From: Sacculina carcini
Taxonomy: Eukaryota; Arthropoda; Thecostraca; Sacculinidae
Assembly (NCBI GenBank): GCA_916048095.2
Contig: OU696589.1
Coordinates: 7,579,683-7,643,682 of the forward strand
Direction: 5' to 3'
DNA length: 64,000 nucleotides
How positions within the stretch are numbered: position 1 is the stretch's first letter; every line of letters begins with the position of its first letter. Shown here piece after piece: positions 638 to 53,714 of this stretch. Below the pieces are notes generated by a model. The model did no database searches, had not been told where the DNA came from, and saw only the letters and a list, made by a program, of their open reading frames with translations. The position numbers and the translations under genes are program-made.

Positions 638-3600
638 ATGTACCAACTATCTAGAGGCGCGAGCGCCACAGTATGTACTCCGCCACCGAATAAAGAACAC
701 AAACAACACAGGCCAGCACCGATGCTGACAGTCGGACTATGCAGAATACTTAAGTTTCATAATTTACGGGATCAATCAAAGTATTCTATGTTGTTTAACT
801 GTTGGTACTGTAACGCGGATGTGTTAACGAACAAAATGGTTGAGTTGAGAACAAGAATCTCGAATGCTGATATTTCTCCAGATATCATAATGATCAATGA
901 AGTTAAACCTAAGACTCCAAGGTACATGCCAATGGAATCGGAACTGAAACTAATTGGATTCAGTATGTTTTCTAATCTGAATAAAAGCGGCCGGGGAATT
1001 GTGATTTATGCTAAAAACCATCTTCAAGCAGGAGAGGTTATTTTCAATAGTGTCTATTGTGAATCTGTCTGGATTGAGATTAGTCTAATGGGAAGCGATC
1101 TGCTGCTAGCTGGATGCATCTACCGAAGTCCTAACAGTGAAGCGGAAAATACTAGCGGGTTGAACAAATTGCTGCAGGAGGTGGATAAACACAAGGCATC
1201 ACATTTTTTGGTAGCAGGAGATTTCAACTTCCCGAAGATAGATTGGAAAGATTGGCACACAGAGGGTGATGAAACTAGCGAGGAGTTTTTATTTCTTGAA
1301 ACACTGAGAGAAAACTACTGGTATCAGAAAGTAACATTTCCGACTAGGGCTAGAGGAACGGATCATCCCACATTGCTTGATCTAATTCTAACGAATGAGG
1401 AAGATATGGTTGAAAATATGGAATATTGTTCTCCTCTTGGCAAGAGCGATCACGGAGTCATAGAAGTTACCTACAAAGCCTATAGAAGACGAGAACATAC
1501 GAAACAGAAAATTAGATTATATAATAGGGGGGATTACAATAGCATGAAATCCAATCTGACAAGTTGTTGGCGTGAAGAAATAAAAAATTATAAGAATATT
1601 GAGGACAAATGGGAATGTTTTAAAGGAAAAATATTACAATTGGAACGGGCACATATTCCAGAGAAGAACAGTAAAGGGCTTCACATTGAGCATAATGATC
1701 GAATGGCTCTGGATCCCAAGATACGAGCTGAAATCAACAAGAAACACAGGTGCTGGCAACGATATATTGAGACGAAGGATCCTGATAAGCATAAACTATA
1801 CTGTAGGCAGAGGAACAGGGTGAGGAAGATGACTCGAGAAATAGAAAGGTTTGAAGAACGTGAGGTAGCCAGACTGGCCAAATCTAACCCGAAAAAATTT
1901 TGGTCGCATGTGAAGCGGAAGTTGAAAACATCTGCTAGTATTGCAGATTTGAAAGTTGAAAAAAATGGAAGGACAGAAGTCGTTACAGGAAATATTGAAA
2001 AGGCTGAAGTATTGTCGGAACATTTTGCTCAAGTTTTCACGAAGGAGGACAATACTCACGAAAATTTCTCGGAAAAGACAGATGTTATAAGTGATTTGGT
2101 GATCACTCAGCAGCAGGTGATGGAACAACTGAATGGATTGAAAACGGACAAATCTCAGGGTCCTGATGGACTTCATCCCAGAGTGTTGAAGGAACTTAGA
2201 GAGGAAATATGCGAAGTCACTACAGATATTTTCAACACGACTCTTGTAACAGGAGAAATACCAACTGACTGGAAGTTGGCAAACATCAGCGCAATTTTCA
2301 AAAAAGGCAATAAATCGGACCCGAATAACTATCGACCGGTGAGTTTAACCAGTGTTGTTTGCAAGATCATGGAGAAAATAATCCGTACTCATATTCTAGA
2401 CCATGTGAAAACACTGGGAATGCTTTCCTCGGAACAGTATGGTTTCCTCACGAGAAGGTCAACGGTTATCCAGATGTTGAATGTTGTGGAAGAATGGACT
2501 GCAGCACTGGATGAGGGGTGTGAGACGGATGTTGTCTACATGGATTTCCAAAAAGCCTTCGATAAAGTACCGCATTATAGATTGCTACATAAACTGGAAG
2601 AATATGGTATAACTGGTCAAATATTGAAATGGATATCATCATTCTTGGTGGGAAGAAAACAAAGAGTGCACATAAAAGGGGAATATTCAGGATGGCATCA
2701 TGTGCAGAGTGGTGTGCCACAAGGCAGCGTATTGGGGCCAATTCTCTTCATCTTGTTCATCAACGATTTACCTTGTAATATTCAGTCGCGGATATATATG
2801 TTTGCGGACGATACAAAGATATTTAGGCGGGTTGATTCACAGCAAGATTGTACGATGCTCCAGGAAGATTTGAATCAACTTCAAAAATGGTCAGTAGAAA
2901 ATCAACTGCCTTTCCACCCTGACAAATGTAAACATTTGAAAATCCACAGCAAGTATCGTTCACATTTAGTGACAAGATATCACCTCGGAAATAGTGTGGA
3001 ACAAGCTGACATACAGCAAGTCAAAGTTGAAAAGGACCTGGGAATCGTGACTGATGAGCACCTTTCTTTCTCAGCCCATATCCAGAGTAAAGTCACTAAA
3101 GCGAACCAGATAATGGGTCTGATAAGACGAACGTTCAAACATCTGGACATTCCAACGTTCCGTCGACTTTTCAAAGCTGTAGTGAGGCCTCATCTGGAAT
3201 ACGGTCAGGCAGTTTGGTCTCCGTACCTGAAAAAGGATGTAACTGCCATTGAAAATGTCTTGAGGAGAGCATCTAAGAATATTCCCGGTTTACATGGTAT
3301 GACATACCAAGAAAGGTTACGATTGTTGCAGCTGCCTACCATGTTGTATAGGAGAATGAGAGGAGACATGATCGAGATGTACAAAATTATGAATAACAAA
3401 TATGACAAGGACGTGAATATGAGATTTGAGAAAAACGAAGGAGCGACTCGAGGAAATTGTATGAAGGTAATTATGCCTAGATGTCGAACTAGAAGGCGGC
3501 AAAAGTCTTTTTCCGTGAGGGTAGTGGATGTATGGAATAGTTTGCCGAATAATATTGTGGAGGCTCCAAATATTGTATCATTTGAAAGGCGACTAGATAA

Positions 3601-3709
3601 GTGGTGGAGTAAACAAGAAATTAGACATGATCCCCTGGGGAAATTTATTGCCGCCACTCGCCAACATGATTTGTATTGTGATGAAGATCTGGACATAGAG
3701 GCCGACTAG
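638..3709 (+). CDS. CR1-like non-LTR retrotransposon ORF2 (endonuclease-reverse transcriptase)
   Basis: This 1023-aa intact ORF would nick target DNA and reverse-transcribe the element's RNA. Residues about 50-280 are an AP-type endonuclease: an NKM motif near residue 64, INEVK near 87, YRSPN, GDFN near 194 and SDHG near 270. Residues about 480-780 are the reverse transcriptase: YRPVSLTS near 565, MDFQKAFDKV, GVPQGSVLGP and the catalytic FADD at 722-725. The C-terminal part ends in the usual LINE pattern VVDVWNSLPNN. The ATG at 638 was chosen as the first in frame; a later start near the endonuclease is possible. No stop or frameshift breaks the ORF, which is unusual for a LINE copy. No ORF1 was found upstream, so the copy may be 5'-truncated. 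A decayed relative lies at 59640-60450. The CR1/Jockey-group assignment rests on domain order and motif style. Confidence 0.9.
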   Translation: MYQLSRGASATVCTPPPNKEHKQHRPAPMLTVGLCRILKFHNLRDQSKYSMLFNCWYCNADVLTNKMVELRTRISNADISPDIIMINEVKPKTPRYMPMESELKLIGFSMFSNLNKSGRGIVIYAKNHLQAGEVIFNSVYCESVWIEISLMGSDLLLAGCIYRSPNSEAENTSGLNKLLQEVDKHKASHFLVAGDFNFPKIDWKDWHTEGDETSEEFLFLETLRENYWYQKVTFPTRARGTDHPTLLDLILTNEEDMVENMEYCSPLGKSDHGVIEVTYKAYRRREHTKQKIRLYNRGDYNSMKSNLTSCWREEIKNYKNIEDKWECFKGKILQLERAHIPEKNSKGLHIEHNDRMALDPKIRAEINKKHRCWQRYIETKDPDKHKLYCRQRNRVRKMTREIERFEEREVARLAKSNPKKFWSHVKRKLKTSASIADLKVEKNGRTEVVTGNIEKAEVLSEHFAQVFTKEDNTHENFSEKTDVISDLVITQQQVMEQLNGLKTDKSQGPDGLHPRVLKELREEICEVTTDIFNTTLVTGEIPTDWKLANISAIFKKGNKSDPNNYRPVSLTSVVCKIMEKIIRTHILDHVKTLGMLSSEQYGFLTRRSTVIQMLNVVEEWTAALDEGCETDVVYMDFQKAFDKVPHYRLLHKLEEYGITGQILKWISSFLVGRKQRVHIKGEYSGWHHVQSGVPQGSVLGPILFILFINDLPCNIQSRIYMFADDTKIFRRVDSQQDCTMLQEDLNQLQKWSVENQLPFHPDKCKHLKIHSKYRSHLVTRYHLGNSVEQADIQQVKVEKDLGIVTDEHLSFSAHIQSKVTKANQIMGLIRRTFKHLDIPTFRRLFKAVVRPHLEYGQAVWSPYLKKDVTAIENVLRRASKNIPGLHGMTYQERLRLLQLPTMLYRRMRGDMIEMYKIMNNKYDKDVNMRFEKNEGATRGNCMKVIMPRCRTRRRQKSFSVRVVDVWNSLPNNIVEAPNIVSFERRLDKWWSKQEIRHDPLGKFIAATRQHDLYCDEDLDIEAD

Positions 3710-4419: not shown

Positions 4420-7400
4420 ATGACGCAGCACACGCGTCTGGTGTGCATCGGCAACCCCCTGCTAGACATGTCGGTACGTGTGGACTCCACACACCTGTTG
4501 GACAAGTACCAGCTCAAGTACGATGACGTCAGAGAAGCAGACTCGACACATTTGGCGCTGTTTGATGAAATTCTCAACAGGTGTTTCTCCACACTGCTGT
4601 CGCCTTGTTAATCACTGTGTTTCAGTTGGTATCGTGAAAACGCAGCCAATGTCGATGTTCTTGGCTGCATTATGCTAGAATATTGCCTGGTTCACAAATC
4701 AAGCGGTAAAATATCCAAATAGACCCGGTGATATTTTAGACCTACCACTAATCGCTCAGACTATTGCCCGTTTTTATGCTATTTCTTCATGCAGTCAGTT
4801 TAGAAAATTGGTATATTTAGGTGGAAGAAAAGTTTATTATCATTGTAAGCTTTTTTTCTCAAAAACAAAAAAATCACATGTATGAATGGTGTCGCGTTTT
4901 CTGTTGTTTGCCGAAGTTTCAACTATTCACAATCAAGTTATTAAGTTCCTGTTTACTGGTACAATTTTTGTCCTGTATTAAAAATACAACTGGCTTAAAT
5001 ATGTATTTTGTAATAACTGACTCTGCTCTTTTTAAATGGTATAATAAATGACGGACATGTTATTCACGCTACCAATGCTGATGTATAGTTGTATGTCACT
5101 GGCTTATTACGGTCAGGTCGCATGTCATTGTGTGCATGTTCCGCGCCGTGTGTCAGGTGCGATGTTTCATATTCGCCCGGCGGCGGCGCCCAGAATACGG
5201 CGCGAATATTCCGCTGGTGCATGTCTGCCGTGGCAGCGGAGAGTGCGTGCGATTGTGTGGCGTTTATGGGCGCGCTGGGTCGTGATACGTGCGGACAACT
5301 GCTTGAGAAACTGGTGCAGCGGGACGGAGTGATGACCAGGTGTTTTATCTCTTCTATGTCATGACTGTCAGCTTTTGCTTGCTCGTCTACTCGCACATTT
5401 GTCACGGCACAATTGTGTTGCTGTGTTTGCAGGTACATATACCACGAGACCACTGGCACTGGTCGTTCTGCCAATATCGTTCACGGTGCAGATCGTAGTT
5501 TGGTGGCGGATATTGGCGCGGCCGCCTCGTGTCCAGCCCGTCTGCTCCTTTCTGCCAGCAATGTCGAGCTTATCTCTCGAGCCCACTTCGTCTATATCGA
5601 GGCTTGTGTCTGCTTGCTCATCTCACTCTCTCTATCTCACTCTGTTTTCTGTGCTCAACTGGACGCGCACTTTCAAATGGGCTGTGTTCATTTAGAAATG
5701 AGCAGTTTGCGCGTCTTCCTGATCACGCATTTTATTATTCAGTGTGCTAATGTCATTGTTAATATAGATTTGTTTAGTAGAATAATTGTCCTAATTAATA
5801 ATTGGAATTGAACTACTGAATACAAATTGTCTCGCTTATCTGCTGTCCATTATCTCATTGCATATACTAGGCAATAACTGAATACACAATGAAAATTGAC
5901 TTAATCGAGGCCAGACACACACATGAACATAATTTCTACATGTACACAACCATGCTGGCGCTAGCCTGATAAATCTGCCTCGGTAGTCCAATTAGCGCAC
6001 ACATGTATCACCTCTACTGTTCATCTCTCTGTGTGTGTGTGTGTGTGTGTGTGTGTTGTGTGTGTGTGGTGTGCGTTTTGCCGTGTAGTCGTGTTGGTGT
6101 GAGGTGTGATGATGAATGCAGTGTGTTCGTGTGACAGGGTTTCTTGTTGACACACGATGCCGACACAGCGTTCAGTGTGGCGGATCTGTGCAGTCGCAAC
6201 GGTGTGGCCACACCTCGTCTCGTGCTCAGCTTGTCGGGCGTGTATGTGTGTCGCGAGCATTACACCAGCGTTGCGCGACTGATGTCTACGGCAGATTACT
6301 TGTTCTGTCACGTGACAGAGTTCACGGCGCTCGCTCAGGCGCTCGGACTGCCGGTTATTACGCTACACACGAGACACTGTTATACGTGAACTAGTACAGT
6401 CTAGTTTGTGTCCAACGTGACAGTGTTGTCTTACCGGGTGATTTTGTTTTGTAGAGTGACGTGGAGCCATCGTGCGAGGCCAGAATACAGTTACTAACTC
6501 GCGCCGCTCAACTTGCACATCAGCAGGGCGACAGTGACGTCAATACAGCGCACGACGCCGTCAATCACTCACTCTGGTCAGTCACTCACTCTGGTCAGTC
6601 AGTCACTCACTCTGGTCAGTCAGTCAGTCACTCTGGTTAGTCACTCACTCTGGTCAGTCACTCACTCACTCTGGTCACTCACTCTGGTCAGTCACTCTGG
6701 TCAGTCACTCTGGTCAGTCAGTCACTCTGGTCAGTCACTCACTCTGGTCAGTCAGTCACTCTGGTCAGTCACTCTGGTCAGTCGCTCTGGTCACTCACTC
6801 TGGTCAGTCACTCACTCTATTCAGTCAGTCACTCTGGTCAGTCACTCTGGTCAGTCGCTCTGGTCACTCACTCTGGTCAGTCACTCACTCTATTCAGTCA
6901 GTCACTCTGGTCAGTCACTCACTCTGGTCAGTCACTCACTCTGGTCAGTCACTCACTCTATTCAGTCACTCACTCTGGTCAGTCACTCACTCTGGTCAGT
7001 CAGTCACTCTGGTCAGTCACTCACTCTATTCAGTCACTCACTCTGGTCAGTCAGTCACTCTGGTCAGTCACTCACTCACTCTGGTCAGTCAGTCACTCAC
7101 TCTGGTCAGTCACTCACTCTGGTCAGTCACTCACTCTGGTCAGTCACTCTGGTCAGTCAGTCACTCACTCTGGTCAGTCACTCACTCTATTCAGTCAGTC
7201 ACTCTGGTCAGTCACTCACTCTGGTCAGTCAGTCACTCTGGTCAGTCACTCACTCTGGTCAGTCAGTCACTCACTCTGGTCAGTCAGTCACTCACTCTGG
7301 TCAGTCACTCACTCTGGTCAGTCACTCACTCTGGTCAGTCACTCACTCACTCTGGTCAGTCACTCACTCTGGTCAGTCAGTCACTCACTCTGTTCAGTCA

Positions 7401-8120
7401 GTCACTCTGGTCAGTCACTCACTCACTCTGGTCAGTCAGTCACTCTGGTCAGTCAGTCACTCACTCTGGTCAGTCACTCACTCTATTCAGTCAGTCACTC
7501 TGGTCAGTCACTCACTCTGGTCAGTCAGTCACTCTGGTCAGTCACTCACTCACTCTGGTCAGTCAGTCACTCTGGTCAGTCAGTCACTCTGGTCAGTCAC
7601 TCACTCACTCTGGTCAGTCAGTCACTCTGGTCAGTCAGTCACTCTGGTCAGTCCGTCCGTCAGCCAGCATGTGTTTGTGTTTGTGTGTTGAGTGGTGCGC
7701 TGGTGTGGTTGTTGTTTCAGTGTGGTGGTGACTCAGAGCGCGTCGCCCGTGCTTGTTATTGACCAGCACCGCACAATCAGCGTGCCTGTGCCTGTCCTTG
7801 AAGCGCCTCTCATCGCTGACACGACGGCCGCCGGGGATGCATTTGTGGCCGGCTTCCTCGCCGCTTCTCTACACAACCTGCCTCCGCCACTGGCCGCCAC
7901 GTGCGATAAACACTGCTCACACCTCTGTCTATCTGCCATGTGTGTGATAACTGCTCGCTTCTCACTGTCGCAATTATGTGAGGTGTGTGTGTGTGTGTAT
8001 GTGTATGTGTGTGTGCTTGTTGACAGCAGTTACGGTATGTCGATATCTCGCGAGTTGATACAACAGACCGGGTGCACATTGCCTGACCACGAGGCTCCAT
8101 TGCTGCCAGACCGCTGCTAG
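4420..8120 (+). CDS. ADK: Adenosine kinase, seven coding exons
   Basis: Adenosine kinase phosphorylates adenosine to AMP using ATP in purine salvage. Exons by phase-consistent splicing: 4420-4580, 5157-5339, 5433-5601, 6138-6353, 6455-6576, 7721-7900, 8027-8120. They total 1125 nt (374 aa), close to the usual 345-362 aa. Family marks are GNPLLD near the N-terminus, the sugar-kinase glycine patch GGGAQNT (62-68), VAFMGALGRD, VYIEGFLLT spanning the exon 3/4 join, and PfkB signature 2 DTTAAGDAFVAGF (317-329) with the putative catalytic Asp323. The C-terminus QQTGCTLP also fits. Odd points: the exon 3 donor is GC rather than GT; intron 5 (6577-7720) is a minisatellite that begins in the exon; and the signature reads TTAAGD where adenosine kinases usually have TNGAGD. 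All joins keep frame, so the gene looks functional. A different PfkB sugar kinase is less likely given the N-terminal GNPLLD. Confidence 0.88.
5602..6137 (+). other. Adenosine kinase intron 3 with GC donor
   Basis: The reading frame and family alignment (VYIE|GFLLT) place the exon end at 5601, immediately before GCTTGT. No GT donor in the right phase lies nearby. The acceptor is GTGTGACAG at 6129-6137. The intron also carries a (GT)n run at 6031-6067. Confidence 0.6.
6563..7660 (+). repeat. Minisatellite forming adenosine kinase intron 5
   Basis: About 65 tandem units of 13, 17 or 21 bp are built from TCAG, TCAC and TCTGG blocks, for example TCAGTCACTCTGG. The array begins inside exon 5, and the first unit supplies the in-phase donor CTG|GTCAGT at 6576/6577. 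Every later unit repeats that donor-like string. Rare variants replace CTGG with CTAT or CTGTT. The array ends about 60 nt before the acceptor TTTCAG at 7715-7720. Confidence 0.93.

Positions 8121-10029: not shown

Positions 10030-10072
<43 letters not shown>
10030..10072. repeat. (TA)n microsatellite at the edge of the Penelope cluster
   Basis: A pure TA run directly abuts the 3' end of the inverted Penelope-like copy. The other outer ends (18536-18552 and 52344-52409) also abut AT runs, so insertion into AT dinucleotides or slippage at the ends is likely. Confidence 0.9.
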
Positions 10073-10076
<4 letters not shown>

Positions 10077-10121
10077 TTATGTAAATGAATCACTTCATCG
10101 GGCACAATCAATATATTTTTT

Positions 10122-10159
10122 AGTACAAACGTTTTCGCCTAACGGCTTCTTCAGGTACT
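10122..10159 (-). ncRNA. Hammerhead-ribozyme-like motif, Penelope copy A
   Basis: On the minus strand it has the same layout as the motif at 12944-12981: stem I strands AGUAC and GUACU enclose CUGAAGA, a GCC/GGC stem II, GAA and the palindrome AACGUU. The cleavage-site base is U. Confidence 0.65.
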
Positions 10160-10292
10160 GAAATTAATTCAAATTAACGGCCAAATTGCACAATTATACA
10201 TCAGACAATAAAAAACACATGCATCATAACAATTGAGTGACTCTAGTAATTAAGTGCTGAAAAAGGAGAATAAATTGTCAATTGTGTTATCT

Positions 10293-12415
10293 TTAAAATT
10301 GACATTTTAAATATATTCCCTTGCAGCCGTTGATGAGCGATCCATCATCATGCTGCCGTATGTAGGCTGCTTCAGCGTACTTTCTTGTCGACTCATCTCT
10401 GATGCCACTGTGGATGATACACCAGCTGATTGATAATGGAGAGTTGGTGTGATGCTCATTGTTGTGTTCGAACATCACACCGTTCAGTTTTGGGCTAATA
10501 TGCTCCTGCACTCGTATTTTCACAGGTCGACAGGTTTCACCTATGTAGAATCTTCCACAGATCGTACAAGTTATCTTATAAATCACATTCTTCTGCCAAC
10601 ATTGTGACTTTTTCGTCGCACAGGAGCATGTAAAGCAACCGGACTCGCATGTCAGGCGCTCTTTGGGAGGTGCAAATATTCTTTTTAATGGGCGACCCGG
10701 GTCAAAGAAAATCCGCACTTTGTCTGCGAGACCCGTTCTTCTGAGCAGTGATTGACACTGTCGCTTGTTTGCCTCTCCCAAGTATGGCAACTTTACATAA
10801 TATTTGCGTTCGTCTTCTTTTTCTTCTCCATGTCCAGAATTGCCCGCATTCCTTAGTGCCCTATATTTTGTTTTTTCGATCACCTTCATGGGATAGCCAT
10901 TCACTTTCAGGCGATTTTCAACGGTTCTCAGCGATTTTCGTAGGTTCAGCTCATTGTTGGCTCTTCTTGACGCCCTCACAAACTCGCCGTATGCAATGGA
11001 ACATTTTGCTGATGTTGAGCCGTAGGATTGCCATGGCGTGAACGATCCACTGTGTACCGTTTTCACATGTAATGTGGTGTCGAATTTGCAACCGTCATGG
11101 CTGATGAGGCAGTCGAGATATGGCAAGCTGCCGTCCTTTGGCGTTTCGATGGTAAATTGGATGTGCGAGTTGATTGAGTTAACAATCCGCATCATATCAT
11201 CAATGTTTACGTCATCGTACCACGCAATGAAAATATCGTCAATGTACCGCTTATACTCCAGTGGCCATGGTAATTTTTCAATTATTTGGCGGTCCATGTA
11301 GTCGGCATAAATAATGGCCAGTTGCGGTGCCATAGAATTGCCCATTGAAAGGCCCTGTACTTGTGCATAGTGCATCTCACCTTGGACAATCACATCATTT
11401 GAAATGGCCAGATCAATGAGCACTACAACATCGTCCACATCCATCAAGGTGAATATTTCATCTCCATCTTTGTGCTGATGTAAAAAGTTTGTTACGACCT
11501 CCATCAAGCCCACATCGTTGTTGCTGGAGCTCCGCGGTATTGTGCCGTACAGGTTAACAATATCCAATGAAGCCATTCCTTTTATTCTATCTTTTGGTAT
11601 GTTTTCGAGCCATTTGAGAAATTCGTCCGTGCTTCTGATGTGTGCAGGAACATTATCCAGAAGATTATCTAATTTTTTTTTTTTTTTGGCCAGGTTCTTT
11701 GATAATTTTGTTGCTGGACCGTCCAGTGCAGCGACTATGGGCCTGCCTTTCAGTTCACCTGCCTTATGATCCTTTGGAAGAACGTATGTCGAATTCGGCA
11801 TTGGAAAACTACACTTCATTGCATTCAGATAGGATGTAATCTGTTTGTACTTCCTATATTTAGTGGACATTACATTCAGTACTGTGTTGAACTTTGCCTG
11901 TCTTGTTGACGGTAGTACGACCTGAATCTTTTTGAAATTTCCACTGTTGATGGTTGCTTCGGATAGCATCTTCTCGTATGCTTCACGGTTTATGGCCATT
12001 AGTCGGCCGGTTTTATCTGTTGTTGTGATGACTGTGCTTTTCTCATTTTTTATTTCATTGATCATTTTCATTTCATTTGATGTCTTCTTTGGCAGTAGTT
12101 TGTGGCAGTCTTTTAGAAGTTTGGTTATGCCACCCGAGAACTCCTGGATAGTTTCATGCTGTATACCGTCCTTGCTCATTTTTGCCACACATTTCTCGAT
12201 AGTAGCGCCACACTCTTTCGTTAAGCGCGAACTGTCTTTGATGCTGTATTGCTGTGGTACATATGATGGACCTTTGTTCAAAAGATCACAGTGAGGAACC
12301 CCGTCTGTCTTATCCACAAACGCCACGCACTTTTTGTTCGGCAAAATAGTTACTTCGTCCAAATGATTCTTCTCCAATTCTTTTGAGAATAAAGCATGAA
12401 ATTTCTTCTTCTTTT
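10293..12415 (-). pseudogene. Penelope-like RT/GIY-YIG ORF, truncated copy A
   Basis: The frame is open from the truncation point to the stop and carries the RT (YIDD) and GIY-YIG parts. The first residues of the longer open frame (upstream of 12415) are antisense readings of copy B and are not native. A poly-T run at 11671-11685 encodes extra lysines: 15 A against 6 in the other copies on the coding strand. That adds three codons without breaking the frame. Without its N-terminus the protein is probably not made. Confidence 0.85.
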
Positions 12416-13035
12416 TAAAAAGAATATTTGCACCTCCCAAAGAGCGCCTGACATGCGAGTCCGGTTGCTTTACATGCTCCTGTGCGACGAAAAAGTCACA
12501 ATGTTGGCAGAAGAATGTGATTTGTAAGATAACTTGTACGATCTGTGGAAGATTCTACATAGGTGAAACCTGTCGACCTGTGAAAATACGAGTGCAGGAG
12601 CATATTAGCCCAAAACTGAACGGTGTGATGTTCGAACACAACAATGAGCATCACACCAACTCTCCATTATCAATCAGCTGGTGTATCATCCACAGTGGCA
12701 TCAGAGATGAGTCGACAAGAAAGTACGCTGAAGCAGCCTACATACGGCAGCATGATGATGGATCGCTCATCAACGGCTGCAAGGGAATATATTTAAAATG
12801 TCAATTTTAAAGATAACACAATTGACAATTTATTCTCCTTTTTCAGCACTTAATTACTAGAGTCACTCAATTGTTATGATGCATGTGTTTTTTATTGTCT
12901 GATGTATAATTGTGCAATTTGGCCGTTAATTTGAATTAATTTCAGTACCTGAAGAAGCCGTTAGGCGAAAACGTTTGTACTAAAAAATATATTGATTGTG
13001 CCCGATGAAGTGATTCATTTACATAATATTTATAA
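12416..13035 (+). mobile_element. Penelope-like element copy B, 5'-truncated
   Basis: Only the last 116 codons (GIY-YIG region, stop at 12808-12810) and the 3' noncoding region remain. It starts abruptly at the head-to-head junction with copy A and runs straight into copy C without a spacer. One silent difference is visible from the full copies (TTGTAAG for TTATAAG at 12522-12528). Confidence 0.88.
12944..12981 (+). ncRNA. Hammerhead-ribozyme-like motif, B/C junction
   Basis: Stem I strands AGUAC and GUACU are perfectly complementary. Between them lie CUGAAGA, one extra A, stem-loop II (GCC, loop GUUA, GGC), GAA, then AACGUU and the cleavage-site base U. A stem III made of the palindrome AACGUU cannot close on itself but can pair between two molecules. 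Hammerhead variants with reduced stem III that act as dimers are known from Penelope-like elements. The extra A before stem II departs from the textbook CUGANGA core, so activity is unproven. Confidence 0.7.
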
Positions 13036-13113
13036 CTATACCGGGTGCGTGAGTGAACATCAATTTTGATATATTTATACAAATACTCATATACATTCAA
13101 GAACGGACCAAAC

Positions 13114-15543
13114 ATGCGAACAACCAACATCTTGTCAGCAAACTACTACCATGCAAAAAAGATCGAAAGATGCAGAAGCAATATTCAATTTTTACGTCTC
13201 TGTCGGAAGAATGACATAATTCCAAAAGGTCTGAGGGTGAAGAATATTCTGAAAAACACATTGCCTTCGGCCAAGGCAGAGGATTTAACAAGAAGACACT
13301 CAAAACAATGGCTACAACTGGCGCTGGACTGTGAGTATAACAAATTGAAGACACTGACATATGATATGTTCCCACTGACTGAACTAGAGCAAAACAAGCT
13401 GAATTCCTGCAGGGAGGAACTACAAGCAAAAAAGAAGAAGAAATTTCATGCTTTATTCTCAAAAGAATTGGAGAAGAATCATTTGGACGAAGTAACTATT
13501 TTGCCGAACAAAAAGTGCGTGGCGTTTGTGGATAAGACAGACGGGGTTCCTCACTGTGATCTTTTGAACAAAGGTCCATCATATGTACCACAGCAATACA
13601 GCATCAAAGACAGTTCGCGCTTAACGAAAGAGTGTGGCGCTACTATCGAGAAATGTGTGGCAAAAATGAGCAAGGACGGTATACAGCATGAAACTATCCA
13701 GGAGTTCTCGGGTGGCATAACCAAACTTCTAAAAGACTGCCACAAACTACTGCCAAAGAAGACATCAAATGAAATGAAAATGATCAATGAAATAAAAAAT
13801 GAGAAAAGCACAGTCATCACAACAACAGATAAAACCGGCCGACTAATGGCCATAAACCGTGAAGCATACGAGAAGATGCTATCCGAAGCAACCATCAACA
13901 GTGGAAATTTCAAAAAGATTCAGGTCGTACTACCGTCAACAAGACAGGCAAAGTTCAACACAGTACTGAATGTAATGTCCACTAAATATAGGAAGTACAA
14001 ACAGATTACATCCTATCTGAATGCAATGAAGTGTAGTTTTCCAATGCCGAATTCGACATACGTTCTTCCAAAGGATCATAAGGCAGGTGAACTGAAAGGC
14101 AGGCCCATAGTCGCTGCACTGGACGGTCCAGCAACAAAATTATCAAAGAACCTGGCCAAAAAATTAGATAATCTTCTGGATAATGTTCCTGCACACATCA
14201 GAAGCACGGACGAATTTCTCAAATGGCTCGAAAACATACCAAAAGATAGAATAAAAGGAATGGCTTCATTGGATATTGTTAACCTGTACGGCACAATACC
14301 GCGGAGCTCCAGCAACAACGATGTGGGCTTGATGGAGGTCGTAACAAACTTTTTACATCAGCACAAAGATGGAGATGAAATATTCACCTTGATGGATGTG
14401 GACGATGTTGTAGTGCTCATTGATCTGGCCATTTCAAATGATGTGATTGTCCAAGGTGAGATGCACTATGCACAAGTACAGGGCCTTTCAATGGGCAATT
14501 CTATGGCACCGCAACTGGCCATTATTTATGCCGACTACATGGACCGCCAAATAATTGAAAAATTACCATGGCCACTGGAGTATAAGCGGTACATTGACGA
14601 TATTTTCATTGCGTGGTACGATGACGTAAACATTGATGATATGATGCGGATTGTTAACTCAATCAACTCGCACATCCAATTTACCATCGAAACGCCAAAG
14701 GACGGCAGCTTGCCATATCTCGACTGCCTCATCAGCCATGACGGTTGCAAATTCGACACCACATTACATGTGAAAACGGTACACAGTGGATCGTTCACGC
14801 CATGGCAATCCTACGGCTCAACATCAGCAAAATGTTCCATTGCATACGGCGAGTTTGTGAGGGCGTCAAGAAGAGCCAACAATGAGCTGAACCTACGAAA
14901 ATCGCTGAGAACCGTTGAAAATCGCCTGAAAGTGAATGGCTATCCCATGAAGGTGATCGAAAAAACAAAATATAGGGCACTAAGGAATGCGGGCAATTCT
15001 GGACATGGAGAAGAAAAAGAAGACGAACGCAAATATTATGTAAAGTTGCCATACTTGGGAGAGGCAAACAAGCGACAGTGTCAATCACTGCTCAGAAGAA
15101 CGGGTCTCGCAGACAAAGTGCGGATTTTCTTTGACCCGGGTCGCCCATTAAAAAGAATATTTGCACCTCCCAAAGAGCGCCTGACATGCGAGTCCGGTTG
15201 CTTTACATGCTCCTGTGCGACGAAAAAGTCACAATGTTGGCAGAAGAATGTGATTTATAAGATAACTTGTACGATCTGTGGAAGATTCTACATAGGTGAA
15301 ACCTGTCGACCTGTGAAAATACGAGTGCAGGAGCATATTAGCCCAAAACTGAACGGTGTGATGTTCGAACACAACAATGAGCATCACACCAACTCTCCAT
15401 TATCAATCAGCTGGTGTATCATCCACAGTGGCATCAGAGATGAGTCGACAAGAAAGTACGCTGAAGCAGCCTACATACGGCAGCATGATGATGGATCGCT
15501 CATCAACGGCTGCAAGGGAATATATTTAAAATGTCAATTTTAA
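13114..15543 (+). CDS. Penelope-like retroelement protein (RT + GIY-YIG endonuclease), copy C
   Basis: This protein would copy the element RNA at a nicked chromosomal site. The start is the first ATG (809 aa); the frame is open a further 16 codons upstream, without ATG. The N-terminal part (1-110) is basic and ends in a lysine run. The central part is the reverse transcriptase, with SLDIVNLYGTIP, QGLSMGNSMAP and catalytic YIDD near residue 493. A cysteine-rich linker (CESGCFTCSC) precedes the GIY-YIG nuclease: VIYKITC near 714, FYIGET, and R, H and E residues further on. RT plus C-terminal GIY-YIG with a Cys linker is diagnostic of endonuclease-bearing Penelope-like elements. The frame is undamaged. 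Confidence 0.93.
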   Translation: MRTTNILSANYYHAKKIERCRSNIQFLRLCRKNDIIPKGLRVKNILKNTLPSAKAEDLTRRHSKQWLQLALDCEYNKLKTLTYDMFPLTELEQNKLNSCREELQAKKKKKFHALFSKELEKNHLDEVTILPNKKCVAFVDKTDGVPHCDLLNKGPSYVPQQYSIKDSSRLTKECGATIEKCVAKMSKDGIQHETIQEFSGGITKLLKDCHKLLPKKTSNEMKMINEIKNEKSTVITTTDKTGRLMAINREAYEKMLSEATINSGNFKKIQVVLPSTRQAKFNTVLNVMSTKYRKYKQITSYLNAMKCSFPMPNSTYVLPKDHKAGELKGRPIVAALDGPATKLSKNLAKKLDNLLDNVPAHIRSTDEFLKWLENIPKDRIKGMASLDIVNLYGTIPRSSSNNDVGLMEVVTNFLHQHKDGDEIFTLMDVDDVVVLIDLAISNDVIVQGEMHYAQVQGLSMGNSMAPQLAIIYADYMDRQIIEKLPWPLEYKRYIDDIFIAWYDDVNIDDMMRIVNSINSHIQFTIETPKDGSLPYLDCLISHDGCKFDTTLHVKTVHSGSFTPWQSYGSTSAKCSIAYGEFVRASRRANNELNLRKSLRTVENRLKVNGYPMKVIEKTKYRALRNAGNSGHGEEKEDERKYYVKLPYLGEANKRQCQSLLRRTGLADKVRIFFDPGRPLKRIFAPPKERLTCESGCFTCSCATKKSQCWQKNVIYKITCTICGRFYIGETCRPVKIRVQEHISPKLNGVMFEHNNEHHTNSPLSISWCIIHSGIRDESTRKYAEAAYIRQHDDGSLINGCKGIYLKCQF

Positions 15544-15676
15544 AGATAACACAATTGACAATTTATTCTCCTTTTTCAGCACTTAATTACTAGAGTCACT
15601 CAATTGTTATGATGCATGTGTTTTTTATTGTCTGATGTATAATTGTGCAATTTGGCCGTTAATTTGAATTAATTTC

Positions 15677-15714
15677 AGTACCTGAAGAAGCCGTTAGGCG
15701 AAAACGTTTGTACT
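15677..15714 (+). ncRNA. Hammerhead-ribozyme-like motif, C/D junction
   Basis: Identical to the motif at 12944-12981 and exactly 2733 nt downstream. Cleavage at both in a read-through transcript would release one unit-length RNA. Confidence 0.7.
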
Positions 15715-15846
15715 AAAAAATATATTGATTGTGCCCGATGAAGTGATTCATTTACATAATATTTATAACTATACCGGGTGCGTGAGTGAACATCAATTTT
15801 GATATATTTATACAAATACTCATATACATTCAAGAACGGACCAAAC

Positions 15847-18276
15847 ATGCGAACAACCAACATCTTGTCAGCAAACTACTACCATGCAAAAAAGATCGAA
15901 AGATGCAGAAGCAATATTCAATTTTTACGTCTCTGTCGGAAGAATGACATAATTCCAAAAGGTCTGAGGGTGAAGAATATTCTGAAAAACACATTGCCTT
16001 CGGCCAAGGCAGAGGATTTAACAAGAAGACACTCAAAACAATGGCTACAACTGGCGCTGGACTGTGAGTATAACAAATTGAAGACACTGACATATGATAT
16101 GTTCCCACTGACTGAACTAGAGCAAAACAAGCTGAATTCCTGCAGGGAGGAACTACAAGCAAAAAAGAAGAAGAAATTTCATGCTTTATTCTCAAAAGAA
16201 TTGGAGAAGAATCATTTGGACGAAGTAACTATTTTGCCGAACAAAAAGTGCGTGGCGTTTGTGGATAAGACAGACGGGGTTCCTCACTGTGATCTTTTGA
16301 ACAAAGGTCCATCATATGTACCACAGCAATACAGCATCAAAGACAGTTCGCGCTTAACGAAAGAGTGTGGCGCTACTATCGAGAAATGTGTGGCAAAAAT
16401 GAGCAAGGACGGTATACAGCATGAAACTATCCAGGAGTTCTCGGGTGGCATAACCAAACTTCTAAAAGACTGCCACAAACTACTGCCAAAGAAGACATCA
16501 AATGAAATGAAAATGATCAATGAAATAAAAAATGAGAAAAGCACAGTCATCACAACAACAGATAAAACCGGCCGACTAATGGCCATAAACCGTGAAGCAT
16601 ACGAGAAGATGCTATCCGAAGCAACCATCAACAGTGGAAATTTCAAAAAGATTCAGGTCGTACTACCGTCAACAAGACAGGCAAAGTTCAACACAGTACT
16701 GAATGTAATGTCCACTAAATATAGGAAGTACAAACAGATTACATCCTATCTGAATGCAATGAAGTGTAGTTTTCCAATGCCGAATTCGACATACGTTCTT
16801 CCAAAGGATCATAAGGCAGGTGAACTGAAAGGCAGGCCCATAGTCGCTGCACTGGACGGTCCAGCAACAAAATTATCAAAGAACCTGGCCAAAAAATTAG
16901 ATAATCTTCTGGATAATGTTCCTGCACACATCAGAAGCACGGACGAATTTCTCAAATGGCTCGAAAACATACCAAAAGATAGAATAAAAGGAATGGCTTC
17001 ATTGGATATTGTTAACCTGTACGGCACAATACCGCGGAGCTCCAGCAACAACGATGTGGGCTTGATGGAGGTCGTAACAAACTTTTTACATCAGCACAAA
17101 GATGGAGATGAAATATTCACCTTGATGGATGTGGACGATGTTGTAGTGCTCATTGATCTGGCCATTTCAAATGATGTGATTGTCCAAGGTGAGATGCACT
17201 ATGCACAAGTACAGGGCCTTTCAATGGGCAATTCTATGGCACCGCAACTGGCCATTATTTATGCCGACTACATGGACCGCCAAATAATTGAAAAATTACC
17301 ATGGCCACTGGAGTATAAGCGGTACATTGACGATATTTTCATTGCGTGGTACGATGACGTAAACATTGATGATATGATGCGGATTGTTAACTCAATCAAC
17401 TCGCACATCCAATTTACCATCGAAACGCCAAAGGACGGCAGCTTGCCATATCTCGACTGCCTCATCAGCCATGACGGTTGCAAATTCGACACCACATTAC
17501 ATGTGAAAACGGTACACAGTGGATCGTTCACGCCATGGCAATCCTACGGCTCAACATCAGCAAAATGTTCCATTGCATACGGCGAGTTTGTGAGGGCGTC
17601 AAGAAGAGCCAACAATGAGCTGAACCTACGAAAATCGCTGAGAACCGTTGAAAATCGCCTGAAAGTGAATGGCTATCCCATGAAGGTGATCGAAAAAACA
17701 AAATATAGGGCACTAAGGAATGCGGGCAATTCTGGACATGGAGAAGAAAAAGAAGACGAACGCAAATATTATGTAAAGTTGCCATACTTGGGAGAGGCAA
17801 ACAAGCGACAGTGTCAATCACTGCTCAGAAGAACGGGTCTCGCAGACAAAGTGCGGATTTTCTTTGACCCGGGTCGCCCATTAAAAAGAATATTTGCACC
17901 TCCCAAAGAGCGCCTGACATGCGAGTCCGGTTGCTTTACATGCTCCTGTGCGACGAAAAAGTCACAATGTTGGCAGAAGAATGTGATTTATAAGATAACT
18001 TGTACGATCTGTGGAAGATTCTACATAGGTGAAACCTGTCGACCTGTGAAAATACGAGTGCAGGAGCATATTAGCCCAAAACTGAACGGTGTGATGTTCG
18101 AACACAACAATGAGCATCACACCAACTCTCCATTATCAATCAGCTGGTGTATCATCCACAGTGGCATCAGAGATGAGTCGACAAGAAAGTACGCTGAAGC
18201 AGCCTACATACGGCAGCATGATGATGGATCGCTCATCAACGGCTGCAAGGGAATATATTTAAAATGTCAATTTTAA
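15847..18276 (+). CDS. Penelope-like retroelement protein (RT + GIY-YIG endonuclease), copy D
   Basis: An 809-aa protein with the same sequence as that of copy C: basic N-terminus, RT with YIDD, Cys-rich linker and GIY-YIG nuclease. The start is the ATG equivalent to 13114. The intact frame in two adjacent copies suggests a family that was recently active. Confidence 0.93.
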   Translation: MRTTNILSANYYHAKKIERCRSNIQFLRLCRKNDIIPKGLRVKNILKNTLPSAKAEDLTRRHSKQWLQLALDCEYNKLKTLTYDMFPLTELEQNKLNSCREELQAKKKKKFHALFSKELEKNHLDEVTILPNKKCVAFVDKTDGVPHCDLLNKGPSYVPQQYSIKDSSRLTKECGATIEKCVAKMSKDGIQHETIQEFSGGITKLLKDCHKLLPKKTSNEMKMINEIKNEKSTVITTTDKTGRLMAINREAYEKMLSEATINSGNFKKIQVVLPSTRQAKFNTVLNVMSTKYRKYKQITSYLNAMKCSFPMPNSTYVLPKDHKAGELKGRPIVAALDGPATKLSKNLAKKLDNLLDNVPAHIRSTDEFLKWLENIPKDRIKGMASLDIVNLYGTIPRSSSNNDVGLMEVVTNFLHQHKDGDEIFTLMDVDDVVVLIDLAISNDVIVQGEMHYAQVQGLSMGNSMAPQLAIIYADYMDRQIIEKLPWPLEYKRYIDDIFIAWYDDVNIDDMMRIVNSINSHIQFTIETPKDGSLPYLDCLISHDGCKFDTTLHVKTVHSGSFTPWQSYGSTSAKCSIAYGEFVRASRRANNELNLRKSLRTVENRLKVNGYPMKVIEKTKYRALRNAGNSGHGEEKEDERKYYVKLPYLGEANKRQCQSLLRRTGLADKVRIFFDPGRPLKRIFAPPKERLTCESGCFTCSCATKKSQCWQKNVIYKITCTICGRFYIGETCRPVKIRVQEHISPKLNGVMFEHNNEHHTNSPLSISWCIIHSGIRDESTRKYAEAAYIRQHDDGSLINGCKGIYLKCQF

Positions 18277-18409
18277 AGATAACACAATTGACAATTTATT
18301 CTCCTTTTTCAGCACTTAATTACTAGAGTCACTCAATTGTTATGATGCATGTGTTTTTTATTGTCTGATGTATAATTGTGCAATTTGGCCGTTAATTTGA
18401 ATTAATTTC

Positions 18410-18447
18410 AGTACCTGAAGAAGCCGTTAGGCGAAAACGTTTGTACT
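18410..18447 (+). ncRNA. Hammerhead-ribozyme-like motif, 3' end of copy D
   Basis: The third direct copy of the motif, again 2733 nt from the previous one, in the terminal noncoding region of the array. Confidence 0.7.
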
Positions 18448-18536
18448 AAAAAATATATTGATTGTGCCCGATGAAGTGATTCATTTACATAATATTTATA
18501 ACTATACCGGGTGCGTGAGTGAACATCAATTTTGAT

Positions 18537-18756
18537 ATATATATATATATATTCCCAGTGGGGTTTTGGCGTGGTGCGCTATTGAGCGGTACTATCTCGC
18601 GCACAAAACAAATGGTGCACGCACATACACATACAGACGAGTACACACACACACACACACAAATGGAAGCAGAGTTGTGTGTTATCAGCTGTGGCGGCGG
18701 CAAAAATGTATCTTGGCTGGCACACGCTCAAATACCGTGATTCGACAACTCGCCAC

Positions 18757-25296: not shown

Positions 25297-26869
25297 CTTG
25301 AAATGAACATTAAACTAAAATAGCTCAACAGCAATGAAGAAATAATGAGGCATTTTAGAAGCGCTATAATTTGATAGAAATCACGGTCTCAATATGTTGG
25401 CACACCTGCCTGCAAATAATTCACCGATCGTCAGCTGGGTTCCAGTGGAAGTTTCAATTATCATTTCATTCGTTCGTCAAAAGTTGACTTGTTTCCAACT
25501 AGCAGCTGCCACGAAAATATCTGCCCCGGTGATTCACATGCTACAAGCTGCTTGAGACGGCGATCAAGCAGGGAGTAGGGGAACTGCATGCTAACAATGA
25601 ACATGACGGCACAACTAGGCCACATTTCGAACACTGAACGTTTATTTGTGCGTCGTTGACAGAAACACAGTGGCGCAGAGCCAGTGGTCACGTGACATTT
25701 GCTGGGTCGACAGGTCACGTGACCACATTTGTCATCTGTCGCGACAAACATCTCATGCATCATGATATCATGTCATCAGATGCACACAAACACACATACA
25801 CACATGCAAGCACAAGTACACAAACACACATACAAACAAACATACATACATACATACTCACACAAATACACACTCATAAGTGTCATAGGACACACGTAGA
25901 GAATTCTACAGGCAACCAGAAGTGAGAATAAATATTTTTAGCTAGATAATCCCTGGATGTCGGCCAACAAATGCACGTGCAATTGCCGTACATGAATATG
26001 AAACTCACATACACTTATTCACACACACACATACACACACACATATATATATCATCACATATACATCAGCATATTGTTGGTTGTTGTTATTTATTAAATA
26101 CTATTTGTATTTATTGTTGTTTGTTGTCACCTTATGAGCCATATTTATATTTGTCTGTTGAATGTTGTTTACTTACTTATTTATTAATATTTATTTTGAT
26201 TTATTCATATTTATTGTTGGTTATTATTTATTGAATAGGGGATATATTAATTTTTAATTGTTGTTGCTGTCACTTATTAAATACCACATTTATTTATTGT
26301 AAATAGTTATTTATTGAGAAGTGTGGGAGGAGTGATATTATGGAGTGTTATCGGATGGATTATTTATTTTTATTTATTAGTTTGTGTTCGAACTCTCTTC
26401 TCTCTAGAATTCTTTACTTTTTGATCTCTCTTCATTTCTACAACCTTTGGGCGCTTCGGGTACATGGGGCCACCTTAGGGTGGTAATAGTACACATGCAC
26501 TCTTCCCATGCTACTGGATTTTCCTGTAATTAATAACTACGTTACAAACTTTGACAGAGCAAGAAAAAAACGTGTCCATATCCATCAACAAGAATAATTA
26601 CACATCAATCAATGTCTTGGAATATATTTGGTGTTGGGACCAAATGCGACGCATTCACAATGAATGTTCGGAGTAAACTTGTATCAAGTACAAGTAAGTA
26701 CAAGAGTATGAGCTATATTATAATTTCGGTTCGCACTGACTGCGCATAAACGCCTCTTATACCCACACTCAACACTTACACACTGAACACATCACACACT
26801 AAGCCTACCGAACACAATGAACACACAAACTGCTGAACAAACAAGCTACTTAACACACGAATATCCTGA
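25297..26869. other. AT-rich sequence with microsatellites
   Basis: (CA)n-like runs at 25780-25875 and 26018-26042, then TTATT-rich DNA at 26080-26380. No gene recognised. Confidence 0.5.
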
Positions 26870-27630
26870 ACACACTGAATACACAACACTTAACACTCGA
26901 TGCACAACACACTTAACACTTGATACACAACACACTTGATACACAACACACTTAACACTTGATACACAACACACTTAGCGCTTGATACACAACACACTTA
27001 ACACTTGATACACAACACATTTAACACTTGATACACAACACACTTAACACTTGATACACAACACACTTAACACTTGATACACAACACACTTAACACTTGA
27101 TACACAACACACTTAACACTTGATACACAACACATTTAACAATCGATACACAACACATTTAACACTTGATACACAACACACTTAACACTTGATACACAAC
27201 ACACTTAACACATGATACACAACACACTTGATACGCAACACACTTGATACACAACACACTTAACACTTGATACACAACACATTTAACAATCGATACACAA
27301 CACATTTAACAATCGATACACAACACACTTGATACTTGATACACAACACACTTAACACTTGATACACAACACACTTGATACACAACACACTTAACACTTG
27401 ATACACAACACATTTAACAATCGATACACAACACATTTAACACTTGATACACAACACACTTAACACTTGATACACAACACACTTAACACTTGATACACAA
27501 TACACTTGATACACAACACACTTAACACTTGATACACAACACACTTAACACTTGATACACAACACACTTTATACACAACACACTTAACACTTGATACACA
27601 AGACACTTAGCACTTGATACACAATACATT
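26870..27630. repeat. 23-bp minisatellite
   Basis: About 33 imperfect units of ACACTTAACACTTGATACAC plus AAC, with shorter units lacking the TTAACAC part. It is not next to any exon that I can identify. Confidence 0.9.
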
Positions 27631-32480: not shown

Positions 32481-35400
32481 CTAGATCACATCAAACATAG
32501 AGTGCAGTCTGTGCTCGTACAGCGCTATTGTCAGCATGATGGCAGCTCCACTCAACATGCCCAACACTTGCATCAGCAGGGACAAACACGCGTCTCGAGA
32601 CGAGGACGCAGAATCGGCGTCACTGCCGGACACCGACGACGGTTCCAGCGACAGCTCAGGAACCTGCCATACAAACACACCACGTTCACAACGCAACACC
32701 AGCCAACAACCATCACCCTTACTTTGCTACAACCAACGCCTCTGGCCTTCGTTGCAAGAAATACTACAGATAATGCGGAGAAATGACAGAATCATGGGAA
32801 AACTATCTGACATTAACAATTATAAAGCGTTTTGTAGAAACATAATGTTGACCGATATAGAGCCACGCTGAATGACCACCAGGCTGTGACGTGATAAGAG
32901 CCGAAATTATCAGTACAACACACTGACCATGTCCACGAGTGCAATGTAGAGAAACGAGCCTGCAGCGAAGGCAAAAACCCACGAGTTGAACGTGTGCATT
33001 GTGCCTGCCAGAATACCGACCACCATGCCGCACAAGCACAACACTGAGCTGATCATGTTGTAGAAGACGGCAGCGCGCACTGACATGCCTGCCTTCAACA
33101 GCACGGCGAAATCACCTGCACACACACACACACACTGTAATCGAGCACAGACACATGCTCAACAATGCTACAATAATCCATTGTTTACACTTAACACAGC
33201 TCATACTACACCGTCACCGTCACATTCAGAAGCACACGCATGCCAGTGGCGAGTTAACAAATATCAGTAAGTATATACGAGCAGCCCATTGACACACACA
33301 CACACATATAAATTAACAGGCGCAGTTACCGATTTCGTGCGGCAGTTCATGACAGAAGACGGCGATGCCGGTGGAGAGTCCGCTGGCGACTCCGCCGGAG
33401 GCAAACGCGGCGCCGATCGCCAGTCCGTCGGTGAAATTATGCAGGCCATCGCCGACAATCACCATAGCAGCGGCGGCCGGGGACTGCGCGCCTCCCGACC
33501 GATGCACGTGGCCGTGTGTGTGCGTGTGACCGTGGTGCCGGTGCTCATGCTCGTGAATGATCACGGTAAACGAGTCATGTCCGGCCGTCGGCGGCTGATC
33601 ACAGCGCGCGTGCGTTGTGAACTGGTGACAGGCGGGCGCACGAGGTGACGGCGGCGCAACCACATCGTTTTGCTACACACACACACACACACACACCATT
33701 TTGTCGCAGCGTGGATACAAGCACACATAAACGCGGCAGACGCTGGGTACAGCGACGAAATAACTGCCAGCAACCCCACACTAACCCGACCACTGATGTC
33801 ATCGTTGCAGACCGTGTCAGCAGCGTGAGACACAGTGGCGACGGTGGCTGTTGCAGTGGGCGGTGCAAGAGACGCGTGTGAGTGCTCCTCACAAGACTCG
33901 GCCGCAACGCCACCTTCAACCACTTCACCGTTGCTACACGTGCGCTCACAACCATTGACACCTGCCAAAACGCCCGCAACCGATGATTAGAACATTGGAG
34001 AACACCGTGCTCCCAGAGAAATCACATCACTGACAACATGATTATATATTCGTACAGCCGTGTACAATGCAGAATACGGTTTCGTAGCTACCTTGTAAAC
34101 GCATCTGAACAACTGCAAGTGTAGTGCATATATACTAGAAAAATGTTATTGTACTGAACTAGAGGAGCACACAACCACAAATTGCATGTACCGTTCCAAT
34201 AAAAATGTTTGCCAAAAAAACATCGCATACGCATGTACTATCAGACGCAGGACTATCTACATTGACATTACGCCTACACTGAAATAATGGCTTATGTGAG
34301 CCTAGCAAGCCATGCCTGACCGGCGCACGCTCAGATAGGGGAGAGCAGACAGCTTAACAACGTGTGTGTGTGTGTGTGTGTGAGCGTGCCAGTGAACGCA
34401 CTAACTGGCCAGAAAAGCGGCGGTGTCTTTGTGAGCGAGACAGCGACTAGCACCCGGGGTTTTGCCGTACACTTTTAACTTGCGCTCAATCAGCTGAGTC
34501 TGATCTCGACTCAAACCGCCAACGTCAGCCAAATGCTCATTGATATTCTGAACGACACACACACACACACACACACACGCAAACAGTGAACAAGTAGCGT
34601 ATTACAAGCACAATTTCGACTGAAGGCATTGTATGCATTGAGAAAAATCCTATTGGGATGAGGATATTGAGCAAAAAAGGAGCTAGTATAGAGCCTTGCG
34701 GAATAACACAAAAGTGCTAGTATCAATATATGAATCATTGGTGAAAAACACTAATTATGTGCGACCCATGTTGAATTATGTGTGAGCCATGTTGAATTAT
34801 GTGTGAGCATGTTGAATTATGTGTGAGCCATGTTGAATTATGTGTGAGCATGTTGAATTATGTGTGAGCCATGTTGAATTATGTGTGAGCCATGTTGAAT
34901 TATGTGTGAGCATGTTGAATTATGTGTGAGCAATGTTGAATTATGTGTGAGCCATGTTGAATTATGTGTGAGCATGTTGAATTATGTGTGAGTGATGTTG
35001 AATTATGTGTGAGCCATGTTGAATTATGTGTGAGCCATGTTGAATTATGTGTGAGTGATGTTGAATTATGTGTGAGCATGTTGAATTATGTGTGAGTCAT
35101 GTTGAATTATGTGTGAGCCATGTTGAATTATGTGTGAGCCATGTTGAATTATGTGTGAGCATGTTGAATTATGTGTGAGTGATGTTGAATTATGTGTGAG
35201 CATGTTGAATTATGTGTGAGTCATGTTGAATTATGTGTGAGCCATGTTGAATTATGTGTGAGTGATGTTGAATTATGTGTGAGCCATGTTGAATTATGTG
35301 TGAGCCACGTTGAATTATGTGTGAGTCATGTTGAATTATGTGTGAGCCACGTTGAATTATGTGTGAGTCATGTTGAATTATGTGTGAGCCATGTTGAATT

Positions 35401-52498: not shown

Positions 52499-52536
52499 AG
52501 TACGAACGTTTTCGCCTAACGGCTTCTTCAGGTACT
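52499..52536 (-). ncRNA. Hammerhead-ribozyme-like motif, Penelope copy E
   Basis: It matches the cluster motif except that the cleavage-site base is C instead of U. C is the usual base in active hammerheads. Stems I, II and the AACGUU palindrome are kept. Confidence 0.68.
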
Positions 52537-53693: not shown

Positions 53694-53714
53694 TGGCGGT
53701 ATGTAGTCGGCATA

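Follow-up and report, generated by a model that had tools for sequence, protein, structure and literature searches.

Whether a short motif that recurs at exact unit spacing in a tandem retroelement array is a self-cleaving hammerhead ribozyme, and what its cleavage might do for the element that carries it, is the question raised by this locus. In the 64,000-nucleotide stretch of the Sacculina carcini genome that was analysed (the window), the first-pass annotation had placed one 38-nt motif at 12944, 15677 and 18410, spaced 2733 bp apart. A pattern search agrees, recovering an exact match at 12944..12981 and identical copies at 15677..15714 and 18410..18447, all on the plus strand. The minus strand holds two more, one identical to the first in an inverted copy of the element (10122..10159), and one with a single change, T to C at position 17 (C for U in the RNA), at 52499..52536, within a separate 5'-truncated element copy that is about 96.5% identical to the 2733-bp unit.

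Anatomy of the motif and its host element

Residues are numbered here by the standard hammerhead scheme, in which the core comprises C3 U4 G5 A6 N7 G8 A9, G12 A13 A14, the pair A15.1-U16.1 and a residue other than G at position 17. Read letter by letter, the earlier parsing stands. In copy 1, stem I (AGUAC/GUACU) occupies 12944-12948 and 12977-12981, the core CUGAAGA 12949-12955, an extra A 12956, stem II (GCC-GUUA-GGC) 12957-12959 and 12964-12966, GAA 12967-12969, the palindrome AACGUU 12970-12975 and U17 12976, with the predicted cut between 12976 and 12977. All five window copies carry every required core residue (CUGANGA...GAAA) and lack G at position 17. Stems I and II can form within every copy, and stem III only with a second copy. 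The motif was matched in none of 100 dinucleotide shuffles, and a search of the genome (264,436,087 bases, or 264.4 Mb, in 43 contigs) yielded 33 exact copies, 20 on the plus and 13 on the minus strand, with a reversed-pattern control of 0.

The motif opens each unit of a Penelope-like element. Two full plus-strand units of 2733 bp (12944..15676 and 15677..18409) are identical, the 2733-bp periodicity spans 12525-18540, and each unit contains the same plus-strand ORF (13114..15543 and 15847..18276; start placed by eye at the first ATG of the open frame), with a weak match to RVT_1 followed by a very weak one to GIY-YIG. The Pfam RVT_1 match falls below the cut-off in the window family (family A) and in the related family B and above it in the related family C, and that to GIY-YIG falls below the cut-off in all three (E 0.052, 0.0019 and 0.043 in A, B and C, respectively). 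A reverse transcriptase (RT) followed by GIY-YIG in one ORF is the Penelope order, and the element occurs in tandem and inverted copies with pseudo-LTRs; the identical units and the weak matches in this order bear out the earlier call of a tandem Penelope array. A search for PDB relatives found none. The array forms part of a head-to-head inverted insertion (10063..18545), in which a minus-strand copy extends from 12416 to about 10063 and the plus-strand array from 12415 to about 18545, with TA repeats at the outer ends on both sides. If the array represents one copying event, as the identity of the units allows and does not prove, three uncut motifs would have been present on the template. 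Elsewhere in the window, the translations show by eye a long ORF of LINE-like type, with stretches resembling an endonuclease and an RT (638-3709), and Gypsy-like ORF pieces that resemble an integrase and an RT (53666-55979), and long tandem arrays lie at 34753-37156, 41176-43194, 26869-27628 and 6560-7657, with periods of 21, 28, about 23/46 and about 17/38 bp, respectively.

That hammerheads with a reduced stem III are established in Penelope elements, as the first-pass annotation had stated, accords with the minimal dimeric forms reported for such elements (Cervera and de la Pena 2014; Lunse, Weinberg and Breaker 2017; as cited in the available text of PMC7761336, PMC6155905 and PMC6466107). 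Like these published forms, which are proposed or shown to be dimeric, the window motif is small, lies in a pseudo-LTR and has a reduced stem III; this stem is self-complementary, and the repeated region adjoins a Penelope ORF. Metazoan retrozymes with type I hammerheads are also tandem mobile repeats, some of them dimer-dependent, but as described in the available part of PMC7229834 they are non-coding, with RNAs of about 170-400 nt, whereas the window unit measures 2733 bp and encodes its own RT. The window motif is a genuine and rather unremarkable example of the Penelope minimal hammerheads, an already known sort, and probably a minimal, type-I-like hammerhead. The Rfam hammerhead models, suggested earlier as a check, gave no match for it, either at the gathering cut-off across the window or up to E = 10 in the 701 bases around copy 1, and none up to E = 10 in the genomic loci L067, L090, L095, L101 and L043:100-400.

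Related motif types, their stems and the extra nucleotide

A protein search of the genome with the window ORF (1,062 first-look candidates, 56 scored) listed 57 matches belonging to at least three families, with identities to the window ORF of 86-100% in A, 56-58% in B and 53-54% in C; intact ORFs compared directly are 56% (A-B), 53% (A-C) and 51% (B-C) identical. The equivalent motif in B and C, located by a fixed and then a relaxed pattern over 53 loci, reads UUGAUAA-A-GCC-UUGUUGA-GGC-GAA-ACGU-C in B and UUGAUAA-A-GCC-GUAA-GGC-GAA-ACGU-U in C, as compared to CUGAAGA-A-GCC-GUUA-GGC-GAA-AACGUU-U/C in A. It lies upstream of the intact ORF in 6/6 copies of A, 11/11 of B and 9/14 of C (at the 25 loci examined). 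Similarity between the pseudo-LTRs of these families begins at the motif, only short matches (E of at least 0.16) being found upstream of it. Further types are D (loci L043, L021 and L022; extra nucleotide U; stem III AGGUACCU), which is without a link to a full ORF in this genome, and E (loci L015 and L145; extra nucleotide A). Type E and types F1, F2 and F3 occur among the 100 listed of 685 matches to a genome pattern combining a GG stem II with ACGU; by eye, all 100 of these have C at position 3, and two have A at position 8.

The covariation of stems I and II that had been named as a check is seen as pair-preserving differences between families. Stem I pairs over 5 bp as AGUAC/GUACU in A and B, ACUGC/GUGGU (with two G-U pairs) in C and UUCUC/GAGGA in D, and the stem II variants GCC/GGC, GGCUA/UAGCC, GGUC/GACC and GGAG/CUCC all pair; stem I is weaker in F1, F2, F3 and E, where the one locus fetched for each type shows only 3, 3, 4 and 4 bp, respectively. 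Because a MAFFT alignment put type D in the wrong place, these pairs were read by hand rather than counted automatically. Stem III is a palindrome that varies in both length and sequence (AACGUU, ACGU and the form in type D), each version being its own reverse complement, and a non-palindromic AAAGTT stands in its place in two decayed A copies. Altogether, eight motif types, with about 1,290 matches, share the core positions with differing stems, and the reversed controls gave 0 or 1. This is hard to reconcile with a chance resemblance amplified by the copying of one element, which, even granting that Rfam is silent and that the identity of the units proves nothing by itself, we regard as highly improbable.

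The palindromes fit pairing between dimers, as the first-pass annotation had proposed, but its claim that stem III must pair between two molecules goes too far, since two copies on one tandem transcript could also pair. The computed minimum-energy fold of the lone motif consists of stems I and II in B and C, and this fold lies within 0.2 kcal/mol of the minimum in A. The double hammerhead has computed energies of -17.5, -18.5 and -13.9 kcal/mol in A, B and C, and lower values were obtained for the best dimer folds (-20.1, -24.9 and -18.2 kcal/mol, respectively), so that competing folds exist.

The extra A before stem II had been singled out as unusual; an extra nucleotide at this point is the rule in this genome. 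GCC-stem patterns gave 604 matches in which a single nucleotide separates A9 from stem II (the four 3-8 classes added together) against 4, in unrelated sequences, without it (control 1), and GG-stem patterns gave 685 against 6, five of the latter being members of family E with an extra G that fit the first pattern too. This amounts to 1,289 matches with the nucleotide and about 5 (4 and 1) without. In F1, F2, F3 and D the residues A9, inserted U and G10.1 spell AUG, opening a reading frame inside the ribozyme motif, and this overlap of ribozyme and start codon is found in four motif types (L141-L144, L146, L043:212, L022 and L021). The F1 and D frames resemble Penelope N-termini by eye. In the window family the same place reads AAG, not AUG, and the frame closes after 17 codons. 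The predicted cut in F1-F3 lies 26 nt downstream of the AUG, which recalls the Poseidon element of Anolis carolinensis (PAc) as presented in the available text of PMC11167929; PAc also has a pseudo-LTR hammerhead near the ORF start and tandem units. Unlike that of PAc, the window-family ORF starts about 137 nt after the cut and not in the motif.

The exchange at core pair 3-8

The sister families B and C differ from family A at core positions 3 and 8, where they carry U3-A8 in place of C3-G8. With the GCC/GGC-stem pattern, the genome holds 117 matches with C3-G8 (reversed control 1) and 475 with U3-A8 (reversed control 0), and mixed pairs are rare, with 5 of C3-A8 and 7 of U3-G8 (12 together), all these counts including a few chance matches of other sequence among the listed rows. 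Those copies of B and C with an intact ORF that retain the motif have U3-A8 in 20/20 cases (among the same 25 loci). The counts say that, to judge from present copies, the paired forms spread and the mixed forms did not. A matched exchange with so few mixed pairs supports the hammerhead fold; as copies within a family share descent, it represents one or two evolutionary exchanges, not hundreds, the number being left at one or two by the unplaced root of the ORF tree (in which the unrelated LINE ORF at 638 was included and ignored).

Alternatively, conservation could act on the DNA itself, either because tandem and inverted copies homogenise one another or because the motifs serve as DNA-binding or recombination sites. 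The identity of the units would fit this, as would some junctions that fall on an AGTACT palindrome (L067, L071) and the frequency of head-to-head inverted motif pairs, of which 13 within 250 bp are found among the first 100 listed U3-A8 matches (for example, L090 at C1:7848350-7848650, L082, L139 and L140). Homogenisation within families leaves unexplained both the pair-preserving differences between families and the 3-8 exchange, and we consider conservation of this kind quite improbable.

To our knowledge, C3-G8 is near-universal in hammerheads, and the exchanged core position is the one whose 2'-OH is the proposed general acid. Crystal structures describe a pair C20/G25, mapped in this analysis to C3/G8, and replacing this pair by anything but G:C left a type III hammerhead with poor activity, according to the available portion of PMC9901934. 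This mutagenesis speaks against a readily active U3-A8 core, at any rate for a type III hammerhead free of protein. We put forward only tentatively that two large, recently active families may use a natural U3-A8 hammerhead, as a palindrome-paired dimer assisted by the element protein; if true, U3-A8 would be a compensatory exchange at the proposed general-acid position, kept in about 475 matches. A natural case of such an exchange was not found in the literature searched, namely search listings and the available text of PMC9901934, PMC2553840 and PMC10085705, with Cervera 2014 and Lunse 2017 outside this scope. The swap in two sister families may be the new part and worth following, its novelty not being established. 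Matches in viral contigs (two U3-A8 and five C3-G8 stretches) were taken as chance, having no fitting stem I by eye and several being mutually identical; no relative of the family B protein was confirmed in viral contigs, and no U3-A8 motif was found in a collection of genome contigs.

Genomic ends of copies and the role of cleavage

The first-pass annotation had self-cleavage produce unit-length templates, and the ends of genomic copies bear on this. By hand counts, copies of A, B and C meet TA repeats at two places, roughly 49-58 and 93-99 nt beyond the predicted cut. As these 3' ends lie downstream of the cut, the motif beside the point where copying begins cannot have been cut; cleavage there would have removed the end region from the template. 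Among the 100 listed A/B tails (of 267 in the genome), 84 hold the motif whole or with at most three changes; on C1-C4, 49 of the 67 listed tails keep it by coordinates (one as C3-A8) and 6 more with one change by sequence, and on C6-C8 it is kept in 29 of 33. These 84 copies would thus have had templates uncut at this point. A partial motif remains in 4 of the 100 (L038, L064, L068 and L074), and it is absent from 12. Four of the latter (L061, L067 minus, L119 and L130) start exactly after the cut, with a clean junction only in L061, since L067 coincides with the AGTACT palindrome and both L119 and L130 are rearranged; L072 is perhaps a diverged fifth start at the cut, and L114 looks like an internal loss. 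In family C, whose tails (172 in the genome, 100 listed, part fetched and partly picked for having no motif) yield no rate, L084 minus begins at the cut, and post-cut sequence was found at the start of 0/5 intact-ORF copies that lack the motif. Hence, uncut templates are the rule in A and B, with occasional cut templates possible. The proposal that cleavage makes the unit-length template has weak support, given that the genomic ends lie downstream of the cut and that just four of the 100 listed A/B tails begin exactly at it, one of them cleanly. A constant spacing from the cut to the RT start was considered and dropped, because the distance from the cut to the repeats is larger in types D and F1. 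In family C, several copies break off exactly where stem I begins on its 5' side (ACTGC), a pattern that would fit cDNA synthesis ending at this point.

Between the motif and the ORF lies a candidate paired element, recognised by eye (12997..13049, plus strand), with arms at 12997-13004 and 13042-13049 and an inner hairpin at 13005-13018. Its arms read TGTGCCCG/CGGGTGCG in A and B and TGTGTCTG/CAGACACG in C, and by eye their pairing persists in all three families through two two-sided and two one-sided changes. The motif and the downstream region folded jointly do no better than shuffles (z about -0.9), and we therefore claim no stable joint fold and treat the downstream element as a candidate only. 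At the end of its 3' arm, A, B and C share a 5' splice-site-like GTGAGT (window 13048-13054).

In PAc, too, there are two 3'-end or RT-start sites downstream of the hammerhead, along with an optional tail. Its hammerhead is inactive without protein and dispensable for insertion in vitro, RNA with a dead ribozyme inserts normally, 5' truncation to +20 leaves insertion active, and RNA-seq ends at the hammerhead cut were not found, as far as the available text of PMC11167929 goes. The normal insertion of dead-ribozyme RNA would suit a motif whose hammerhead fold persists chiefly for its structural role in a protein-binding, RT-start RNA module, with cleavage incidental or lost, most clearly so in the U3-A8 families. 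The poor activity of non-G:C exchanges at pair 3-8 (type III hammerhead; PMC9901934, available text) points the same way, as do the 3' ends inside or just past the candidate paired element and the retention of the motif in most listed A/B tails. Against this, insertion of the anole element proceeded even when its RNA lacked the ribozyme part, and a structural role alone does not predict a conserved core together with an open position 17, so we consider it rather unlikely, though the most serious of the alternatives.

The reading we favour, with reasonable though by no means full confidence, is that of a minimal hammerhead in the Penelope pseudo-LTR whose slow cleavage would at times trim multimeric transcripts. 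We infer catalysis, dimerisation and the role of cleavage as follows. Stems I and II and the core would form in each copy, and stem III as a duplex between two motifs, either on two transcripts or in two units of one tandem transcript. Slow cleavage after U17, probably assisted by dimer formation or protein, would then sometimes trim the 5' ends of multimeric transcripts. Since the start of copying lies beyond the ribozyme, on RNA that still has it intact there, cleavage would serve in this way rather than as an obligatory maker of templates. Weighing against this reading are the silence of Rfam, the joint fold that does not surpass shuffles, the lower energies of competing dimers in all three families, the short stem I of the E and F types, the behaviour of the anole hammerhead and the small number of listed A/B tails (4 of 100) that start exactly at the cut. 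The anatomy of the motif, its conservation across families, its pair-preserving changes and its position relative to the genomic ends, on which this reading builds, can be read directly from the genomic copies.

According to a review, what hammerheads do in Penelope elements is unknown (PMC7761336, available text). One genome here offers eight motif types, with the canonical pair in some, the swapped pair in two and a start-codon overlap in some, and a natural comparison of these types could show whether it is catalysis or structure that keeps them conserved.
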